From the NCBI RefSeq assembly GCF_026210795.1, contig NC_089430.1, positions 2,914,001 to 2,978,000 on the forward strand: 64,000 nt of DNA, read 5' to 3'. The notes beneath the pieces were generated by a model. That model made no database searches, had not been told where the DNA came from, and worked only from the letters and a program-made list of their open reading frames with translations. The DNA is from Rhizophagus irregularis. Lineage: Eukaryota > Glomeromycota > Glomeromycetes > Glomerales > Glomeraceae. The position numbers and the translations under genes are program-made. Each line of letters opens with the position of its first letter. The stretch's first letter is position 1. Positions 20,553 to 52,387 of the stretch are shown here, piece by piece.

Positions 20553-23500
20553 AAACCACACCACTGGTGCCCAACACCACTGGTGTCTGGCACCAGTTTT
20601 TTTTTTCAAAATTTATTTTAGTAAGTGCGAAATTTTTTTTTAAATTAAAGTTATGGTGTATTTTATATTTTGGTTAAAATTATTGTAATCATTACGAAAA
20701 GTTTTTTTTTTTAGAGAAAATTTTATTTGAAAAATATAAATTTATTAAAGTTTGCAAATAAAACTAAGAATTATAGATTATAATAAGCCGTAGACTTCAG
20801 AAATTTTAATTTTTTTTTGGGCAGGTTCGCATATTATGCCCTATTTGATTACAAGTCCCACATCGCCTTGACTTGCTTTTACTACTTTCACCATCTACAT
20901 TCACGTTTAATTCCTCATCCACTAAACAAAAAAAAGGTTAATAGGATGTGAATTCACAAAATAAATATAAAGACCTAGTATATACCTGTATTAAGTGCTT
21001 TTCGAAGCTTTTTATGTGATAATTCTTCAGCAATATTGTTCTCTTTATTATTGGTAGATTCATGTATTTGCTTTCTTTTACCTTTATTCCCACTCATATT
21101 TTTAGGCTTTCGGCCTTTTGTTATAATTCTAACAGGATTGCTGATAGTTTGAGCAAATTCTGTATTATGATCACCTTGTACAATTTGAACCATTTCAGAT
21201 TCCAGTTCCTTAGCAAGATTTTCATGCAATTCATAAAGTTCCTCTATTCTACCTGTTTCAATTGCTAAATCAAGTGTTTTTTTCATTATTCCAAAAGTTT
21301 TTCCCCATTGTTGTTTTCGTGTCATTTCTTGGCAAATTTCCTTGGTAAAAATATGGTGTCCACGAATGTTCTCTAAGTGGGAAAGATCCACTTCAACCAT
21401 ATATTCTACCGTACCAAATTCATTGTCTGATATTACTGAAATTGCTGGTGTGTGTAAAAATATCAAATCCATCTCCATAACTTTTGCATTTGTATACCAG
21501 CGCCGCGGTATAAGTCCAATATGAAATTTAGAAATTGAAGAAACAAGCATTACTGCAAAAAAATGGCGACATACAAGGCCATGGCTTATTAATGTCAGGC
21601 ATGTGCACAGATGCATAGTATTGTCATAAAGTACAATAAAATGCTTGCTTTTTTTATTGATGGAAGAAACACGCCAAAGTTCATTTATTCTGGTTAGATC
21701 CAAATCTGCAATCAATTGTGCAAGTTCTATAACACATGCATCAAACATGTCTTCAGAAAACATGCCTGTTGGTGATTCAGCAGTTTCCTATAAAAAAACA
21801 AAATAATTAAATTTGTATGTCATGGTGAAAATAATAATGAGATAAACATTGATTCATACCTGTTTTTGAAGTTCATTTTCCAAGTTAGCTATATGACATC
21901 GGTAATGCATACTGCGGTTCATTTCATGTCTTTGAAGTTTAAGGACTGCTGGCGTTAAGAATTGCTGACACAATACATCAACTTCTTTAAAATAATGATT
22001 ATGGTAATCTTCTTCTTGGCTTACAGGAAGTTTACCAATAGTTTCATTTAATCTAACATACCGGCTCTCTTTTTCTAATAACCTTTCAATTGTACGCTCA
22101 AGTTCTATAAGGGATGATGATCCACTAACATTATTTTTTATAATACCATTGTATGACTCCACACGTTGTGTACTCTGAATTCCAGCATTAAATGCACGAT
22201 GGGTGAAGCATAATGCCCAGGCTTCTCTGCAAGGATAAAGCTGGCGTTGCAAATAATTTTTTGCATCAGGATATTCATTTAATAATGTAGTCCATCTCTC
22301 TTCAAAAATTGATTCAACCCGACTATTACGTGTAGAACAAAAGGTTGCAAAAAATTTCTTCCACTTTTCACCATGATATTTACTTAGAAAATGCTTCTCC
22401 AAGTTTTTTCTAATATGAAATAAACAAAAATGATGCTTTGTTGCTGGCCAAGAGCTTCTTGCTGCTGCAATCATCGCGGGATCTGCATCAGTATAAAGTA
22501 ATGATGGTGCTAATCCTCCTGTTGCTTTGGAAATACTTGCAAATAACCATGAAAAAGTATCTTTTGTTTCATCTGAAACTATGGCAGTTGCAGCAAGACG
22601 GGAACGATTGTGATTATCTACCAATATTACAACACACAAAATCATAGAAAAACGGTTAGTTTTTGCTGTCGTATCAAGCAAAATAACATCATGAAAATGA
22701 GCCCATAGTTCTTGTTGATTTGGACTCATCCAACAGAGTCCAACAAGATGATTATCATGACCTTCAAAACGTGCATCAACATGAAATGTTGGATTTTCTT
22801 GTTGTTGGTTCATAAGTGCAAGATACATTGAACCGGCATCACTTGTAGTCTGATTTTGATGTCGAAGTGTTTGAACCAAATTGTAAATATTACGTGCATG
22901 AATATATTTTTCTGGATACTTGTGCTGTAATACTTCAATAATTGTACCAGCACGCACTCCACAGGCAGCAAAAAGTGCAACATCGTCATACATTTCTGGA
23001 GTAAGCTTGCGAAAGTGAGGTGTAACCATCCTAATATTATCCACTAAATCATGATTATGTTCGCCATCAATTTTTGTAATATGGATAAGATTGTCTTTTT
23101 TTCGGCGATAAGCATTAACATGAAATTTGCAGTCAGTTGTGTGATGTCCTCTATTACGATTTTCATCTGTATGTGCATTTTTTTGCTGATTGTATGATCG
23201 GCCTTTTGAACATGCATAAATACGACGCCGAGGAAAACCATCTTCTTTATCTTTATCACTATGAGTAATTGTGAATGCAAAACCCCGTTCCAACCCATGA
23301 TTTTCAAGGAATCTTAAATGGTAAAATAAAAAAAAATTTTTTTAATATCATATTATTAAAAAGAATAAATGTGCAATGATAACAAAGTACGAAAAATAAT
23401 TTCCAGTAAACTTACTCGTCAAGTTTTTTCCAGTTTGTGAACGTCATTTCAAGTGTAATAGGATAAAGTGGCTCAAGGTTTTCAATTTCTTCATAGTCAT

Positions 23501-26749: not shown

Positions 26750-27274
26750 TCAGTAATTTTGAAACACATCAGAGCTTTTTACGCCTATATCTTTGTAATT
26801 ATACAAAAATTTTAGCGGTTCATAACGATAAGACATGTACAATTTACCACTACCACCCAAGTATATCATTGCATTAGTGTCTTCTAAACCAATACAAACA
26901 ATTAAGGTCTCCCCATATTCTTTTAATTCTTCTCCATAAATATAAGTTGATATTGATCCATAGAGATTAAATCCTCGCACATAACCATCTTTATCAACAT
27001 CTAATGGAATATAAGCATAAGGATACTTCGCACAAAGTTCCTCAATTTTTGATTCCTTTTCATCATCCGACTCTAGTGATTCAAGTTCAAGCTGACGAAA
27101 TTGGTTAAGTACCTCAATAGTACGTTTACAAAACCTGTCAGCATCGTTTTCTTTTCTCCAAAAATTATCAGTATACGCTCGTGGAGCTGGTGGCAGATCA
27201 GTGAACAAATCATTTTTAGATTTATCACTATTGGGCTTGGGATGTGTTTCTGGCTTTGGATGTGTCTGTCCCAT
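26750..27274 (-). CDS. Hypothetical protein, 174 aa (copy A paralogue)
   Basis: Single-exon ORF starting MGQTHPKPE with a THPKP duplication, so Gly2 could be myristoylated. The middle has an acidic helix (59-83). A DVDKDGYV segment (92-99) resembles an EF-hand loop start but lacks an acidic residue at loop position 12. There is no membrane span. It differs from the copy B protein only by Y86C, Y105F, S109P and R150H, from five nucleotide changes in 525. Flanking parts of the duplication have many more indels, but the flanks immediately around this ORF are also very similar. I do not recognise the family. Being the only intact ORF of the duplicated core, it is probably a real gene. Confidence 0.65.
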   Translation of the reverse strand: MGQTHPKPETHPKPNSDKSKNDLFTDLPPAPRAYTDNFWRKENDADRFCKRTIEVLNQFRQLELESLESDDEKESKIEELCAKYPYAYIPLDVDKDGYVRGFNLYGSISTYIYGEELKEYGETLIVCIGLEDTNAMIYLGGSGKLYMSYRYEPLKFLYNYKDIGVKSSDVFQNY

Positions 27275-28115
27275 TTTTTTCGTGAAGAGACTTTTCTAGT
27301 CAAAATGATATTACCGTATAAAATTATAAATATAGTCATTTACTCATTGTTGTCTAAAGTAAGTAGTAAATCTTTTATTCCGTTTTTGGCAGTGTATACT
27401 GCATAAGTAATAATATTTCGTGGTACGTCATTATATCACAGGAACAATTGCATATTCTTGTATTAATAACTAACTCGCGTAAAGTTCTTTAAAGATCAAG
27501 TTAACGTAATTTTCCCTTCCAAAATCGATTAGACCCACTACAAATCATATAAAAAGGCGAGGCTCTGGTTAGTGAATTCTTTATCTGTTTTGTACAATAA
27601 AATAAAAATATATTACATCCATTTTTTTTTACTTTTTTGTTTTTCTGGAAAAGCCAAACGTCCACCGCCAATTCGGTCGCACATGGAACGTCTGAAGGAA
27701 GTGAACTCAGTTTGCCACCGCCACTTGGTCTGTACATGAATAGATTTGACGTTCCCAGAAGTTTGCCGCACGAAGCCACCTTGGTGGAGAAAATGACGAA
27801 GAAACACGAAGAGACACTCGGGCGGAGCACCAAGGGAAAAAAAAGGAAAAAGGAAATATCACTTTGAAACGTAAAAGTGTAGAATATCAAAAAAGTAAGT
27901 CACGTGAGTTCACCGACAATCATAAATCACGAGGTTCAGCATATTCAGCATTAATTTTCTTGACGATCCTGCCAGCTTCACATAAAATAAAATCAGCATT
28001 AATTTTCATTAATTTTCATGCAACAAAAATAAACATTTTTATGTCATTTTTTTAATTAACAAGTTACTTCAAAAGTCATACTTTTTCAATATGAAACTCG
28101 CAGAAGATTGTGTAA

Positions 28116-29741: not shown

Positions 29742-32414
29742 TTACCAGTAATTTATATTATTAATTGCTGCTTCTAATGTAGCAGATACATCTATTTCTT
29801 CATCTGCTGTTTCCTCTGATTCTTCCTCTTCCTCTTCATTAATTTCGTCATCTAAATCATCCTGTGTAAGCGTATCTGTTCCTTTTTCAACTCTTTTTAA
29901 AAACGAATTTACATTTTCAAAAATACCTTTCTTATAAAAATTTTCACAATAAACACATCTTCTACCGTAACAAACTGGATGATAACCATGACCACAAGCA
30001 AAAACTACTCCATTATTGTTCAATGGTAGCCCACAATTATCACATAATCCTGACTTTGGTAAATAGGACGTACTGTATGCTGTTGGTAGGTGACGCAAGT
30101 CAACTTCCTTTCCTAAAGTAGCAAGTTTGTATCCTCTTAATTTTTTTTCTTTTTTTCTTGTATTATTGTACAAGGGAGTGCTATTATTTTGGTTATGAAA
30201 TATATTACGGAAGTAATTAAGTAGGAAGAGACTGGTCTTATCAGACAGGAATTTAAGTGTAGATAGATTGTACGAATAATTGCGAGTTTTGCGAAATGTA
30301 TCTTTAAAGATAGGATCATGATCCGCTATTTAAATTGTTAGGAATAAGTAACAAATAATATGTAATGAAAAATTAATATTATTATATTTATTATACCAAT
30401 AACATAAGCCTGTTTTATAATGGTTTCAGCTGTAGCATTTGAAGATGTATTTGCTCTTATTCGGCTATGAGTGTTTTCAACGTAATAGTCATTAAAACAT
30501 GGTAAATAATTTTTAATTGCATCAGCAAATGGGTGATGGTTATCTTGCCAATAAAATAAATCTGATAAAAATATAAGAGGCGCTTTATTATAATTTTTTC
30601 TTTTCCAACGTAAAGCAAATGTCCAAATACGAAACACAGTTTCCACATATTCTTCAAATGAACCTGAGCGAAATAAAACTGCATATACATCAAGTGTAGC
30701 TGGAATAAGATTGTCTAATAAGTCAATTACAGTTCGATATTCAACATCTTTGCATGTTGAACCAAATTTTTGCATAACCTCATTTTTAATTTTAACCCAA
30801 CCACTTCGCGCAAGTTCCAAGAGAAGGTTAATTCTCCAAGGCTTTGGTTTTTTTGCCAGCTTTTTATTTTTGCCAAATACAAAATGAAACATTTGTTCAA
30901 AAAAAGAATGATGAATTATCATAACATGTTCTCTACTATTGAGTGAAAGGTGAAGTGGACCTAGCATCGGTATAAAAGATTCAATTTCTTTTGGAATAGC
31001 AGATTGTAATCCTAATGCATGCAGATGTGTTAATGCTTTTCTGATAAACAGCTGACCTGGCCAATCTGCAACAATAGGTGCAACATAATTATCCAAATAT
31101 TCTGTTTTTCTACTTATAGTTAAAATCATTTGTAAAGCATTCAAGTAGTCCTGCATTGAATGTAAATGCTGTTCTTTAAAGCCAATTAATTGAAGATCTT
31201 TCATTGATCTTTCATCCTTTCGCTCTGCAATAGCATCATCATAACAATGAATAGTTAAAAGTTCAATACGATCAAAAGTATTAGCGTTTTGATATCCTTG
31301 TGAAATCCAATATATCTGACGTTCTGTATATGTGATATCAAAGTTTCCAGTATATTTGTTGCTAAATACCAACAAATTCTTGGTGCTTGAACATTATTTG
31401 GATTGTGAACAGATACTCCATTAAATACAATTGGTACTGCAAAGCATTCCATAACAGGTTTTGCTACGCAAGTAGAAAAATGCTTTGCCGTTGATGTTGT
31501 CACTGTATCTGGTCTACGCTTTTCATGAATGTCGCTGATAATCATCTATGTTATAAATATGCAGGCAATCTCCCTATTACAAATAAAAAAAATCAATTTT
31601 ACAATACATAAAGCATAAACCACTTTTTTAATAATGTTTACCTTTTCCAAAAAGTGATCTTCAATCTTGGTTATGTGATTCAATTGAATCTTCTTCTGAT
31701 AGTCCATAACTGTTTTAGCACAAGCTGAATATCCAATACTTGATAATGTATCAATAGCTTCCCATGTAGCACCTGATGCTACCAAATACAATCCAACTTC
31801 TGTCTTGAATTGGTTAACGAATTTGTTACGCAAACCAGCAATTATATAACATAGAGCAACAATTGATTTTTTGGCTTCCTGTTTATTATATTCTGATCGG
31901 TCTTTAGGAATAATAGCATTAACCATTGAAGGAAAGAATCCTTTTAATTCGGGATTAGCATCTTCAATCATAAGTTGAAATTGTACTGGATCCAATTCCA
32001 AACCAGCAGATTCTCGACGTTATTTGTTGAATAATACAGTTGTTAATATTTTGATATTTGATGCGAAAGTGGGATCTCTATACAAAGCTAAAGAGATATA
32101 AGTTAACCATTTAAAAAGAAGTCTTTCAGCTAGTAACAATTATTTTGAGATACCTTCTTCTTCATTTGTGACTTTCTTCCTACTGCATTCTTGGCTTTTT
32201 AACCTTCTTTTTTATTTCTATTTCTATTAGATTCCACTATTTTGCAATAATGTAAATGGCAAAGTTGTTTTCCTATTTCAAGATAAGGGTATGTTTCTAA
32301 TGTATTTTCCTTTTGGCATTTCTGGTATGCAAGTTCTGTAATTAAACGAAAACTAACATTTCTATATGTACAATTATCTACTGAGCAAGGTCCAAAATTT
32401 TTTTTCGTTACCAT
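29742..32414 (-). pseudogene. DUF6589-like transposon protein, left arm
   Basis: The gene starts at 32414 with a zinc-binding N-terminus (CSVDNC, then CHLHYC). Later exons carry YSACAKTVMDYQKKIQ, the conserved DIHEKRRPDT and PVMECFAVP region, a 345-codon open stretch (31375-30338) with VADWPGQL and IPMLGPLHLSLNSREH typical of DUF6589, and a C-terminal RING-like module (CDNCG, ACGHGYHPVCYGRRCVYC) plus an acidic tail. At least three introns (for example after the LEKG codons near 31656, and at about 30404). Lesions: a missing A near 32210, a TAA at 32020-32022 shared with the other arm, frameshifts near 31530 and 31366. DUF6589 proteins are repeat-associated in fungi; a transposase role is inferred. 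Confidence 0.65.
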
Positions 32415-32585: not shown

Positions 32586-35386
32586 CTCAGTAGATAATTG
32601 TACATATAGAAATGTTAGTTTTCGTTTAATTACAGAACTTGCATACCAGAAATGCCAAAAGGAAAATACATTAGAAACATACCCTTATCTTGAAATAGGA
32701 AAACAACTTTGCCATTTACATTATTGCAAAATAGTGGAATCTAATAGAAATAGAAATAAAAAAAGAAGGTTAAAAAAGCCAGAATGCAGTAGGAAGAAAG
32801 TCGCAATGAAGAAGAAGGTATCTCAAAATAATTGTTACTAGCTGAAAGACTTCTTTTTAAATGGTTAACTTATATCTCTTTAGCTTTGTATAGAGATCCC
32901 ACTTTCGCATCAAATATCAAAATATTAACAACTGTATTATTCAACAAATAACGTCGAGAATCTGCTGGTTTGGAATTGGATCCCAAGTACAATTTCAACT
33001 TATGATTGAAGATCGCTAATCCGAATTAAAAGGATTCTTTCCTTCAATGGTTAATGCTATTATTCCTAAAGACCGATCAGAATATAATAAACAGGAAGCC
33101 AAAAAATCAATTGTTGCCTACGTTATATAATTGCTGGTTTGCGTAACAAATTCGTTAACCAATTCAAGACAGAAGTTGGATTGTATTTGGTAGCATCAGG
33201 TGCTACATGGGAAGCTATTGATACGATTATCAAGTATTGGATATTCAGCTTGTGCTAAAACAGTTATGGACTATCAGAAGAAGATTCAATTGAATCACAT
33301 AACCAAGATTGAAGATCACTTTTTAGAAAAGGTAAACATTATTAAAAAAGTGGTTTATGCTTTATGTATTGTAAAATTGATTTTTTTTATTTGTAATAGG
33401 GAGATTGCCTGCATATTTATAACATAGATGATTATCATGACATTCATGAAAAGCGTAGACCAGATACAGCGACAACATCAACGGCAAAGCATTTTTCTAC
33501 TTGCGTAGCAAAACCTGTTATGGAATGCTTTGCAGTACCAATTGTATTTAATGGAGTATCTGTTCACAATCCAAATAATGTTGAAGCACCAAGAATTTGT
33601 TGGTATTTGCTTAACAAATATACTGGAAACTTTGATATCACATATACAGAACGTCAGATATATTGGATTTCACAAGGATATCAAAACGCTAATACTTTTG
33701 ATCGTATTGAACTTTTAACTATTCATTGTTATGATGATGCTATTGCAGAGCGAAAGGATGAAAGATCAATGAAAGATCTTCAATTAATTGGCTTTAAAGA
33801 ACAGCATTTACATTCAATGCAGGACTACTTGAATGCTTTACAAATGATTTTAACTATAAGTAGAAAAACAGAATATTTGGATAATTATGTTGCACCTATT
33901 TGCTGGTAACATTGGCTGGGTCAGCTGTTTATCAGAAAAGCATTAACACATCTGCATGCATTAGGATTACAATCTGCTATTCCAAAAGAAATTGAATCTT
34001 TTATACCGATGCAGGTCCACTTCACCTTTCACTCAATAGTAGAGAACATGTTATGATAATTCATCATTCTTTTTTTGAACAAATGTTTCATTTTGTATTT
34101 GGCAAAAATAAAAAGCTGGCAAAAAAACCAAAGCCTTGGAGAATTAACCTTCTCTGGAACTTGCGCGAAGTGGTTGGGTTAAAATTAAAAATGAGGTTAT
34201 GCAAAAATTTGGTTCAACATGCAAAGATGTTGAATATCGAACTGTAATTGACTTATTAGACAATCTTATTCCAGCTACACTTAATGTATATGCAGTTTTA
34301 TTTCGCTCAGGTTCATTTGAAAAATATGTGGAAACTGTGTTTCGTATTTGGACATTTGCTTTACGTTGGAAAAGAAAAAATTATAATAAAGCGCCTCTTA
34401 TATTTTTATCAGATTTATTTTATTGGCAAGATAACCATCACCCATTTGCTGATGCAATTAAAAATTATTTACCATGTTTTAATGACTATTACGTTGAAAA
34501 CACTCATAGCCGAATAAGAGCAAATACATCTTCAAATGCTACAGCTGAAACCATTATAAAACAGGCTTACGTTATTGGTATAATAAATATAATAATATTA
34601 ATTTTTCATTACATATTATTTGTTACTTATTCCTAACAATTTAAATAGCGGATCATGATCCTATCTTTAAAGATACATTTCGCAAAACTCGCAATTATTC
34701 GTACAATCTATCTACACTTAAATTCCTGTCCGATAAGACCAGTCTCTTCCTACTTAATTACTTCCGTAATATATTTCATAACCAAAATAATAGCACTCCC
34801 TTGTACAATAATACAAGAAAAAAAGAAAAAAATTAAGAGGATACAAACTTGCTACTTTATAAAGGGTTAAGTTGACTTGCGTCACCTACCAACAGCATAC
34901 AGTACGTCCTATTTACCAAAGCCAGGATTATGCGATAATTAAGTGGCTACCATCGAACAATAAATTGTTAGCTTCGCTGCTGGGCCATTTTCGTTATCAT
35001 CCATTGCTACTTTAGGAAAGGAAGTTGACACGTCAGCCTACCAACGGCATGCAATACGTCACTATTTACCGAAGTCAGGATTATGTGATAATTGTGGGCT
35101 ACCATTGAACAATAATGGAGTAGTTCTTGCTTGTGGTCATGGTTATCATCCAGTTTGTTACGGTAGAAGATGTGTTTATTGTGAAAATTTTTATAAGAAA
35201 GGTATTTTTGAAAATGTAAATTCGTTTTTAAAAAGAGTTGAAAAAGGAACAGATACGCTTACACAGGATGATTTAGATGACGAAATTAATGAAGAGGAAG
35301 AGGAAGAATCAGAGGAAACAGCAGATGAAGAAATAGATGTATCTGCTACATTAGAAGCAGCAATTAATAATATAAATTACTGGTAA
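32586..35386 (+). pseudogene. DUF6589-like transposon protein, inverted right arm
   Basis: Inverted duplicate of the left-arm gene, lacking its first codons (it begins at the codons for CSVDNC). It keeps the reading frame where the left copy is broken (for example KKRRLKKPECSRKK near 32770, and the intact DDYHDIHEKRRPDT region at about 33425). It is broken elsewhere: TAA at 32949-32951 (shared), compensating small indels near 33010 and 33120, TAA at 33907-33909 in place of the VADWPG codons, and single-base losses near 34010 and 34155. The C-terminal RING-like module and acidic tail are intact (to 35386). The start-less 5' end means it cannot be expressed from its own ATG. Confidence 0.65.
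34862..35095. repeat. Imperfect internal duplication unique to the right arm
   Basis: The block from GTTGACTTGCGTCACC through GGATTATGCGATAATT is followed by about 90 bp of extra sequence and then a second, about 10-15 percent diverged version (GTTGACACGTCAGCC through GGATTATGTGATAATT). The left arm has a single version. It accounts for the 165-bp excess length of the right arm and lies in the exon coding for the region before the RING-like module. Confidence 0.65.
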
Positions 35387-40463: not shown

Positions 40464-40988
40464 TCAGTAATTTTGAAACACATCAGAGCTTTTTACGCCT
40501 ATATCTTTGTAATTATACAAAAATTTTAGCGGTTCATAATGATAAGACATGTACAATTTACCACTACCACCCAAGTATATCATTGCATTAGTGTCTTCTA
40601 AACCAATACAAACAATTAAGGTCTCCCCATATTCTTTTAACTCTTCTCCATAAATATAAGTTGGTATTGATCCAAAGAGATTAAATCCTCGCACATAACC
40701 ATCTTTATCAACATCTAATGGAATATAAGCACAAGGATACTTCGCACAAAGTTCCTCAATTTTTGATTCCTTTTCATCATCCGACTCTAGTGATTCAAGT
40801 TCAAGCTGACGAAATTGGTTAAGTACCTCAATAGTACGTTTACAAAACCTGTCAGCATCGTTTTCTTTTCTCCAAAAATTATCAGTATACGCTCGTGGAG
40901 CTGGTGGCAGATCAGTGAACAAATCATTTTTAGATTTATCACTATTGGGCTTGGGATGTGTTTCTGGCTTTGGATGTGTCTGTCCCAT
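40464..40988 (-). CDS. Hypothetical protein, 174 aa (copy B paralogue)
   Basis: Single-exon ORF, same length and start as the copy A gene; 170 of 174 residues identical. It carries the MGQTHPKPE N-terminus, the acidic central helix and the DVDKDGYV segment. The C-terminal half has the aromatic-rich LYMSYHYEPLKFLYNYKDIG. Four of the five nucleotide differences from copy A change an amino acid, so the near identity reflects recency or gene conversion as much as constraint. No family recognised; no signal peptide or membrane span. Confidence 0.65.
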   Translation of the reverse strand: MGQTHPKPETHPKPNSDKSKNDLFTDLPPAPRAYTDNFWRKENDADRFCKRTIEVLNQFRQLELESLESDDEKESKIEELCAKYPCAYIPLDVDKDGYVRGFNLFGSIPTYIYGEELKEYGETLIVCIGLEDTNAMIYLGGSGKLYMSYHYEPLKFLYNYKDIGVKSSDVFQNY

Positions 40989-41819
40989 TTTTTTTGTGAA
41001 GAGACTTTTCTAGTCAAAATGATATTACCGTTTAAAATTATAAATATAGTCATTTACTCATTGTTGTCTAAAGTAAGTAGTAAATCTTTTATTCCGTTTT
41101 TGGCAGTGTATTTTGCATAAGTAATAATATTTCGTGGTACGTCATTATATCACAGGAACATTCTTGAACATAACGATTTTAGATCAAGTTAACGTAATTT
41201 TCCCTTCCAAAATCGATTTAGATCCGCTACAAATCATATAAAAAGGTGAGGCTCTGGTTGGTGAATTCTTTATCTATTTTATATAATAAAATAAAAATAG
41301 TATTACCTCCATTTTTTTTTTACTTTTTTTTACTTATTTTTTTCTGAAACTAGAGGAAGTAAACTCAATTTGTCACCACCACTTGGTCTGTACATGAATA
41401 GATTTGAGAAAAGTTCACTTTTTCAGAGATTAGCCACCACTTGGCTTGGCTGCACGAAGTCTGTCAGGAACTCTTGTAAAAAAATTTAAAGAATATCGAT
41501 ATTTACAGTATATGTCCTTACATATATCAGTATATTTTATTTTTTATTTTTATTTTTCAAAGTTAACAAAGTAACTGTGAAAATTACAAACTCAGTTTGA
41601 ATGATATCAAAAAGATAAGTCATGTGAGTTCACTGACAATCATAAATCACGAAGTTCAGCTTATTTTTTGCGCATAATTTTCATGCAACAAAAATAAACA
41701 TTTTCACGTCATTTTTTTAATCAAATAGTTACTCCAAAAGTTATACTTTTTTCAATATGGAACTTACAGACGGTTATACGATATTGAGTATGATATATAC
41801 TTCTGGTGTTGTGTAGTAT

Positions 41820-45248: not shown

Positions 45249-47499
45249 CAGTCAAAGCTCGTTATAGTGAACCCTTGCCTGGGCCTAGACTTTTTGTTTA
45301 CTATAACGAATATTTACAAAATCGAAAGTTCTCTTTATAGTAAACTTTATATTAGCACAAAAAAAGTTTCTTTTAACAAAAGTTTTTTGAATTTTATTAT
45401 CAACAATTATGTATTTACATATTTCAAGTATTTAACATAAGTTCATATAACTATCTAATGTAAACTGCTTTACATTATCTTGAATTTTTTTGTTAATTTT
45501 TGATTTTAAAATATTAAGAGATTTCAATTCTGTGTAATTAATTGTAATATCATCGGGTGGATTTTTAAAATAAAGAATTACTTTTTCTAAACTATTCAAA
45601 GCCTCTTTATTAGTAATAATATTTATTTCGGATTCTTCATCCTCTTCTGTATTATTATTTTCAGGATTTGAAATTACCGCATCTATAATTTCTTTATCTG
45701 ATAATGATTCTATTGGAATCTCGTCATCAATACAAATAAACTCCTTAGCTGTAATAGGATCTTGTAAATTTAATTCATTAATAATGTCTTGTAATTCTAA
45801 AGTAATTTCCTTGATATCGTCATCAATAGTATTTTGGTCAAAATCGTCTTCTAAATTTGGTAAAATACACATTTTTCTCCAGCAATTTTTAATTGTACTT
45901 GATTTTACTATTTTCCATGCCTCACTTGCAAATGTTATAGCATCAAGAATATCAATTGGTGTTATATCCGAACTATTTTCTTGAGCCATATCATATGCCT
46001 CCACCCTATTTGCGACCAAAAGTTTTCTATACTGGGCCTAAAAAATATTTAGATAATAAGATATTAAATTATAACAAATAATATTAATAATTAGTGTATT
46101 TATTCTTACTTTAAAACTGTTGATAATACCAGCATCTAAAGGTTGCAAGTGAGAAGTTGTATTTGGAGGAAGAAAATGTACTTTAATATTCGATAATTGT
46201 ATAGTTTCATCAATTAAATGTGTGGGTGCATTATCCGCTAATAATAAAATATTGCGATTTTGTCGTCTCATTAATTGATTAAGTTTATTAAGATAATCAC
46301 GCCATACTGATACTTGCATCCAAGCTGTACGGTTCCAATAATACCAAACGGGTAAATCATCCTTTTTAATTCCCTTTAAAACACGCGAGTCTCGCCACTG
46401 CGTATTACTAATGCAGGTAACTTATGACTACCATCAGCATTACAGGTTAAAACAATTGTAATCCGATTTTTTGATTTTTTAGTGCCAGAAATATAATGAT
46501 CTGAAAGTGTCTTGGATGGTTCTAAATTCCAAAATAAAGCTAAAAAATACAAAATTATTACAATTAATAATGATAATAATAATGATATTTTGTGTAACTC
46601 CAATTGTATTTACCTGTTTCATCAACATTATAGACGTTACGAAGATCATATTGTTCAATAATTTCTTGCAAAGCCACACGTTCTTCTTCTAATGTTTCTA
46701 ATGGTGCACTGTTCGCTTCACCAGCTTTAATAAATTGTTTTATATTATAACGCTTTTTAAACTTTGATAACCACCCATCTGAAGCAGTAAAAGTTGTTGT
46801 TTGTAATTGAGTCGCAAAATTTAAAGCTTTAGCCTTTAATATGTCACCTGTAATTGTTAAATTTGAAGCTAATGCTTGCTGCATCCATAAATATAATACA
46901 GATTCAATTTCTGGAAATTTTGCACCTCTATCCCTTTTTTGATTACTTAATTCTTTATTTGCAATATCAATACACAGCCATTTTTCCTTTTCTTTTAGTA
47001 TTCTAGAAACTTGCGGTTTTGATATATCATATTTTTTAGTAAGATCATTTTGATTATATGATGGATTATCCCTTTTCCACTCACATAATTCTTTTTTTTG
47101 CACAAACGACAAACTTTTTCTTTTACTAGCTTTTTTTACTTCTTTTCCTTTGCCTTTTCCAACGGGTGGCATTTTCAAGAACAACGAAAAAAAGTTGTAT
47201 CACAATAATAGGCGTTTATCATTAAAAAAAAAGGAAATTAAACTAACTACATGTGTTTAAAAATGATTCGCAAATGCAAATCTAATGATTTCACGTGATA
47301 TTTACTATAACGAGAATATATTTATAATATACGTTCTATAGTAAAATTCTAAAAAAGTTTACTATATCTAATATCGAGATTTTATTAGTAAGTTTACTAT
47401 AACGAACAAGATTTATTAGTAAGTGAACCGGGGGAATAAAAAAAGTTTATTATAAGCCAAATTTACTATAACGAGCTTTACTATAATGAGTGTTGACTG
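45249..47499 (-). mobile_element. pogo/Tigger-type transposon (2.25 kb)
   Basis: Ends are CAGTCAAAGCTCGTTATAG and, inverted, CAGTCAACACTCATTATAG, with further subterminal repeats of ACTATAACGA; TA flanks both sides (45247-45248, 47500-47501). CAGT ends, TA target and a CENP-B/DDE_1 transposase identify the pogo branch of Tc1/mariner. It lies outside the duplicated segments. Confidence 0.9.
45432..47172 (-). pseudogene. pogo/Tigger (CENP-B-like) transposase, one frameshift
   Basis: Exons 47172-46614, 46539-46110 and 46037-45432; about 530 aa. Domains: basic N-terminus, a CENP-B/psq helix-turn-helix (KKYDISKPQVSRIL), a Tc5/CENP-B second DNA-binding domain (YLWMQQALASN, ASDGWLSKFKKRY), then DDE_1 with NVDET (Asp 1, spanning intron 1), LLADNAPTH (Asp 2) and LQPLDAGI (Asp 3), and an acidic tail. 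Both introns close in frame. The only lesion is near 46383, where CGCG stands in place of CG, throwing the frame off by two bases before KGIKKDDLPVWYY. All three catalytic Asp codons survive. Either recently inactivated or a sequence error. Confidence 0.85.
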
Positions 47500-51293: not shown

Positions 51294-51301
51294 TATATAA
51301 A
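51294..51301 (+). promoter_or_regulatory. TATA box of the histone H4-like gene
   Basis: TATATAAA lies 37 bp upstream of the ATG at 51331, in a locally less AT-rich stretch. If transcription starts about 30 bp downstream, the leader would be only a few bases long, so another start upstream remains possible. Confidence 0.45.
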
Positions 51302-51330: not shown

Positions 51331-51782
51331 ATGGCTAAGACTCCGACGCCCCGTCCAAAAAGCGGTAAAGGACTTGGAAAAAGTGCTAAAGTTAGTGCAA
51401 TGCGGCATAGGGTAAATATTTAAAGTAAATACTAAGTTGATTGGATTGCCTATTCACTTTTTAACTGAAGAATAATTTATTTTATTTTTAGAAATTGCTG
51501 CGTGAGAACATCAAAGCGATCACACGACCTGCTATTCGAAGAATGGCACGTCGAGGTGGCGTTAAACGAATATCGGGCGAAATATATGAAATTGCAAGAA
51601 CTTGTATAAAAGATTTCGTCACGGATGTTCTCAAAGACTGTGTTTCCTATGTAGAATATGAACGAAAAAAAACGGTGGGTGTTATGGAGATGTTGTTGGC
51701 CCTCAAAAGACAAGGACGAACTATATATGGGTTCGATCATGAAATCAGAGGACGACACACCCATGCACATTTTCATTATTAA
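51331..51782 (+). CDS. Divergent histone H4 variant
   Basis: Exons 51331-51411 and 51492-51782; 123 aa, against about 103 for canonical H4. The histone fold is clear: [26 protein letters not shown], and [13 protein letters not shown]. The N-tail starts [17 protein letters not shown], keeping GKGLGK but inserting VSAM before RHR, so the usual K16-K20 spacing is changed. The core has many substitutions ([33 protein letters not shown]). After YGF there is a His-rich extension ([15 protein letters not shown]) absent from normal H4. The single intron falls right after RHR. It is a nuclear, nucleosomal protein by family; a specialised or meiotic variant is inference. It starts the gene-dense part of the window. 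Confidence 0.9.
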
Positions 51783-52387
51783 TAAGAATATCCGTCCCCA
51801 AAAATTTTTGGATTATTTCTTGTATAAAATTGTGACATTGAGAGTTTATCTATAGAGATATAAATAATTCATAAATTATCTGGTCGATACTTGATTCTCA
51901 TTATTTTTTTCTACCGTTATCGATTTTCTCTCCAATTTAAACACTTGTTAAATATAAATTCTATTCTCTGCAAATAACTATCCGTCACCTCTTATTATAA
52001 AAAAAAAAATTAAAATGTATCATAAAAATGAATTTAAAAAAAAATTATGAAAAGATGAGATGTATTTAAATAAATACTTCTCAAACCTAAAAATCATAAA
52101 TCTATATTTTAAAATATTTATTTTTTAAAGATGTTTAAATCTAGATCAAAATAAATTCGAATTATTAAAATTTATCATATATTCATGATTTCAAATGTAA
52201 ATACGCAGCAGCTGAACGCAAAAAAATTGAGCATTACCGTTTTCACGAAAATCAAGATCTAAATTTGGTATCATAATATTTAGTCAACATCTCCGTAAAA
52301 GTTACACTGCTTTCTATTTGTCCAGTAATCTACTAATTATTTGAACATCTCATTTGAGCGTTTCTTTGATTTAATTCTTCGTATTAT
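51783..52387. other. Intergenic region between H4 variant and SelO
   Basis: 605 bp, AT-rich, holding the 3' region of the histone gene and the SelO promoter. No canonical stem-loop of replication-dependent histone mRNAs was noticed. No ORF. Confidence 0.5.

Follow-up and report, generated by a model that had tools for sequence, protein, structure and literature searches.

In the 64,000-nucleotide stretch of Rhizophagus irregularis DNA analyzed here (the window), a two-exon gene on the forward strand at 51331 to 51782 encodes a 123-residue H4-like histone, referred to below as H4E (Table 1). The frame of 123 codons is interrupted by a single phase 0 GT-AG intron and ends in tandem stops, with a TAA at 51780 to 51782 and a second in-frame TAA at 51783 to 51785. 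A preliminary description of this DNA had reported a divergent H4 variant with an open frame and a proper intron, and this is borne out: the locus is a genuine, intact gene for a divergent H4 variant, with none of the marks of a pseudogene.

Table 1. Features of the H4E gene and its upstream region (window coordinates)
Feature	Position	Strand	Description
TATATAAA TATA motif	51294..51301	+	At -37/-35 from the H4E ATG
H4E exon 1	51331..51411	+	27 codons; N-terminal tail; K5/K8/K12 equivalents retained, K16 replaced by Met
H4E intron	51412..51491	+	80 nt, phase 0, GT..AG (GTAAATAT..ATTTTTAG); between the R19 and K20 equivalents
H4E exon 2	51492..51782	+	Histone fold, strand, and C-terminal extension; 96 codons to 51779, stop at 51780-51782
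H4E C-terminal extension	51735..51779	+	15 residues past the F100 equivalent; His-rich end HTHAHFHY

The TATA box upstream of the gene had also been counted against a pseudogene, but it carries little weight in this respect. When 60-bp stretches are drawn at random from the window (26% GC), 17.8% contain the pattern TATAWA on one strand, and the motif is therefore weak evidence, being common by chance in DNA this rich in AT. Transcription usually starts about 30 bp downstream of a TATA box; thus, the 5' untranslated region of H4E would be nearly absent. The sequence TATATATAAA is found upstream of both canonical H4 genes on contig C6, starting at -136 and -127, and TATAWA is absent within 250 bp of the canonical H4 gene on contig C15.

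A phmmer search of the PDB with the H4E product gave a best E value of 2.7e-34, with query residues 7 to 108 aligned. Ninety-six distinct sequences were matched at E <= 0.001, and the best 60 of these 96 were all named histone H4, one of them being named H2A as well. Pfam and NCBIfam models discriminate H4 poorly. H4E had sub-threshold Pfam matches alone (CENP-T_C and CBFD_NFYB_HMF) and no NCBIfam match; the canonical H4 of the same fungus scored 22.7 bits against a cut-off of 26.4 for PF00125, passed PF15511 (CENP-T_C) and PF02969 (TAF), and had two NCBIfam matches, both below the cut-off. A single-sequence structure model of exon 2 (mean pLDDT of 65.2, pTM of 0.34, C-terminal residues mostly <50) contains a single 50-residue helix instead of separate histone-fold helices and is too poor to judge the fold.

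Comparison with the canonical H4 genes of the genome

H4E and the canonical H4 core were used as queries against the genome (146,748,485 bases in 32 contigs), and the locus counts given here are lower bounds. The preliminary description had proposed a search for canonical H4 genes elsewhere in the genome, and at least three such loci are found with either query, at 2859.5 kb on contig C15 and at 3229 kb and 3921 kb on contig C6. H4E itself is represented by one locus, on contig C2, among the genome matches listed. With the canonical core as the query, the CENP-T locus on contig C31 is also listed, though weakly (E = 0.65). The three spliced canonical H4s are 98.1 to 99.0% identical to one another, whereas H4E is 59.2 to 60.2% identical to each of them over 103 aligned residues (61 or 62 of 103 identical).

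The structure and surroundings of these genes differ as well. In the canonical gene on C15, one intron follows codon 68 and the other interrupts codon 88; in both genes on C6, the first follows codon 28 and the second again interrupts codon 88. H4E, unlike these two-intron genes, shares none of the canonical positions, and its sole intron, after codon 27, falls in a different column of the alignment. Furthermore, two of the three canonical genes, those on C6, are arranged head-to-head with a divergently transcribed H3 gene about 0.6 kb away; for H4E, no H3 on its contig is among the matches listed from a genome-wide H3 search. A copper-reductase idea for H3 was considered separately and rejected, as the H3 at 3228 kb on C6 has A at the position of C110, which we take to be the site concerned.

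Both tails of the H4E protein are longer than those of canonical H4. The N-terminal tail, described earlier as new, has 24 residues before RHRK, compared with 17 in the canonical protein (+7). It contains 5 K and 1 R, compared with 4 K and 1 R in canonical H4, and thus there is no loss of Lys/Arg in this tail. The altered spacing reported around K16 to K20 is present as an insertion of 3 residues ahead of the RHRK block, and the K16 position is itself occupied by Met. The equivalents of K20 and of the three lysines listed in Table 1 are retained, and K31 and K77 are replaced by Arg. At the other end of the protein, 15 residues follow the conserved F100, compared with 2 in canonical H4, giving an extension of 13 residues instead of the approximately 16 first estimated.

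The many core substitutions noted previously amount to 32 of the 77 positions between residues 24 and 100. They cluster in helices 2 and 3: 5 of 25 positions differ at 24 to 48, 26 of 44 at 49 to 92, and 1 of 8 at 93 to 100 (Fisher P = 0.0024 for the first segment versus the second, the groups having been chosen post hoc from the alignment). H4E and canonical H4 have the KRQGRTxYGF block and a further block of 11 residues in common. Of the contact residues known for the nucleosome, H4E also retains 9 of 10 that touch DNA and 7 of 8 in the C-terminal strand, but no more than 5 of 12 in the four-helix bundle with H2B. Changes in the H2B-facing helices include H75Y, V87L, and Y88L. This pattern would be expected if H4E had kept its folding, its wrapping of DNA, and its handling by chaperones and differed in the octamer interface.

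Between H4E and canonical H4, dN is 0.36 to 0.37 (NG86) and dS has reached saturation (2.6 and 3.2 in two comparisons, and not computable in the third). Among the canonical copies, dN is 0.009 to 0.018; the H4E branch is clearly faster, although these pairwise dN/dS comparisons involve paralogues, for which dS is saturated, and in part reflect the near-immobility of canonical H4. The H4E frame has been maintained over a long time.

Placement among fungal H4E variants and alternative explanations

Flipphi et al. (2024; PMC10878826) gave the name H4E to a histone of Pezizomycotina, basal Taphrinomycotina, and Glomeromycota, including R. irregularis. According to that paper, the H4E genes of Glomeromycota have a single phase 0 intron, which is confirmed for R. 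irregularis by EST GW123471. The alignment in Figure 2 of the paper includes R. irregularis, G. cerebriforme, and G. margarita, and its structural models include R. irregularis H4E. The traits that it describes are longer tails and, in many members, loss of K16, along with a markedly different number and distribution of Lys/Arg residues in the tails (a paucity generally and in Aspergillus nidulans particularly). The variant, its host species, and its single intron are therefore already in print, and the histone is not new. What is added here is the clustering of substitutions in helices 2 and 3 and the genomic setting, in which the canonical H4 genes on C6 lie head-to-head with H3 and the contig carrying H4E has no listed H3 match.

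The gene is very probably the Glomeromycota form of this published fungal variant and, on the basis of the species, the intron, and the described traits, is in all likelihood the very R. irregularis H4E that was published. Like fungal H4E (hheA of A. nidulans and H4v of Neurospora crassa), it is an H4 paralogue with a conserved core and longer, divergent tails, in which K16 is lost and the gene structure is unlike that of canonical H4 (PMC10878826). It constitutes a second, divergent H4 besides near-identical canonical copies (59 to 60% versus 98 to 99% identity), its tails are extended (N +7, C +13) and carry K16M, and its 80-nt intron after codon 27 matches the single phase 0 intron reported for Glomeromycota. 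The likeness is not complete, however. The H4E genes of ascomycetes are split by several introns at different positions, compared with one here; the C-terminus of A. nidulans H4E exceeds the canonical one by 7 residues, compared with 13 here; and the published paucity of Lys/Arg is not seen in the N-terminal tail of this gene (PMC10878826). The trees in the same paper leave a common origin of Glomeromycota and ascomycete H4E unsettled, and two of them favor independent duplication. Other specialized H4 variants, namely, H4V of Trypanosoma brucei, the testis H4 of Oikopleura, human H4G, and the bracovirus H4 (summarized in PMC10878826), belong to other lineages and have other changes, and they are likened to H4E here by description. 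The term "histidine" is absent from the text of PMC10878826, and, apart from that paper, none of the titles and abstracts listed by literature searches concerned this gene in an arbuscular mycorrhizal (AM) fungus. A search with the name hH4v led to a paper on an H3 variant of Candida.

The gene is extremely unlikely to be a retro-copy or pseudogene of canonical H4 undergoing decay, with a frame still open by chance. The lack of canonical intron positions is what a cDNA copy would be expected to show, and the substitutions are many, but the 123-codon frame is intact and closed by tandem stops, the GT-AG intron is at a new site, and 61 or 62 of 103 residues are still identical at a saturated synonymous distance. 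The EST reported from R. irregularis and the relatives reported from other members of the Glomeromycota likewise argue against decay (PMC10878826); if they concern the same gene, GW123471 and these relatives therefore also answer the objections, anticipated in the preliminary description, that the variant might have no orthologue or no transcript. An H4 gained from a giant virus or another foreign source is just as hard to credit, even though R. irregularis strain 4401 carries an endogenous Asfarviridae-like region of 1.5 Mb and 59 putative viral regions are reported from five strains (PMC10640383). The H4E gene span has a GC content of 38.2%, which would fit a foreign origin; however, raised GC is common to the canonical H4 coding sequences (44 to 48%, compared with 42% for H4E), and the GC content at 50 to 55 kb of the window is 26.6%, near that of host chromosome 8 (28.0%) and far from that of the viral region (36.6%) (PMC10640383). 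Two scans of IMG/VR viral contigs, in which records near this genome were possibly omitted, yielded 29 and 82 pattern stretches and, at the sensitivity used, no relative by tblastn, which makes a viral source unlikely. Among 10 of the 29 neighboring frames that were scanned, 9 matched known families (two kinases, MULE/FAR1, Tc5-type, SelO, ubiquitin-type, COX5A, a reductase, and a sub-threshold HEPN), and one had no family match. H4E also contains an intron and is 60% identical to the host's own H4, and an independent Marseilleviridae-like origin is without support according to the authors of PMC10878826.

The alternative that H4E is a centromere-specific partner for divergent CENP-A-like H3s, or otherwise acts outside ordinary nucleosomes, is quite improbable. 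Two divergent, putatively CENP-A-like H3 genes are present in the genome (C19:3782397-3782947 and C11:3640950-3641479; GDPIRPxKPRRYRPGT, IMQKDIQLARRIRG), and helices 2 and 3, the most altered part of H4E, face H3 and H2B in the nucleosome. However, CENP-A normally pairs with canonical H4. In A. nidulans, moreover, overexpressed H4E-GFP overlaps the linker-histone signal, and deletion of H4E is without a phenotype, unlike what would be expected of a centromere protein (PMC10878826).

Possible role in chromatin

Most likely, H4E would serve as a minor form of H4 uncoupled from replication, with H3 as its partner in a subset of nucleosomes and a K16 position closed to acetylation. It would be made outside the S-phase supply of H3-H4, pair with H3, and enter a minority of nucleosomes. 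In these, the DNA contacts and the C-terminal strand (Asf1, H2A docking domain) would be retained, and the altered H2B-facing helices, together with the impossibility of K16 acetylation, may result in changed nucleosome stability and no response to K16-based regulation. The H4E of A. nidulans is nuclear, interacts with H3, is dispensable, and is no substitute for canonical H4; its protein level is low in mycelia, and it is well expressed under nitrogen starvation at 37°C (PMC10878826). Even in this species, no function has been identified for H4E (PMC10878826).

A more specific proposal is that the H4E of AM fungi evolved independently and that its His-rich tail, lying beside the strand that docks Asf1 and H2A, gives nucleosomes a response to metal or pH for use in a starvation, spore, or symbiotic state; we regard this as very improbable. 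The projection of the tail from the H2A/H2B face and its binding of metal, both suggested in the preliminary description, are putative properties. Variants of H4 are rare, and genes of the H4E type persist in distant groups of fungi (PMC10878826). In the form described here, the unusual His-rich end and the concentration of substitutions in helices 2 and 3 offer concrete predictions about nucleosome stability and K16-independent chromatin.

H4-like sequences elsewhere and neighbors in the window

In contigs of prokaryotic genomes, 3 of 93 pattern stretches are H4-like, and these are taken for eukaryotic contaminants. One is a canonical H4 (L012), one is an H4 cut before its C-terminus (L014), and the third is a divergent H4 with a C-terminal extension of its own (L013); the HTHAHFHY end is absent from L012 and L013. 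The divergent sequence, which has a long N-terminal tail in addition to the C-terminal extension (FDPGATKGWGKSKGSKKG), lies on PABI01000160.1, labeled an Anaerolineaceae MAG and probably a contaminant contig.

Several other features of the window were observed alongside the gene. Two near-identical open frames of 181 residues lie on the reverse strand about 14 kb apart, at 26750 to 27295 and 40464 to 41009 (by eye). Between them, an apparent inverted gene duplication, also recognized by eye, occupies 29742 to 32019 (-) and 33400 to 35386 (+); the sub-threshold HEPN match comes from the copy on the reverse strand, the one of the two that was scanned, and the end of the duplicated gene looks Cys-rich and RING-like. 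The two transposase frames are on the reverse strand as well, the MULE/FAR1-type frame at 21857 to 23341 and the Tc5-type frame at 46567 to 47199.
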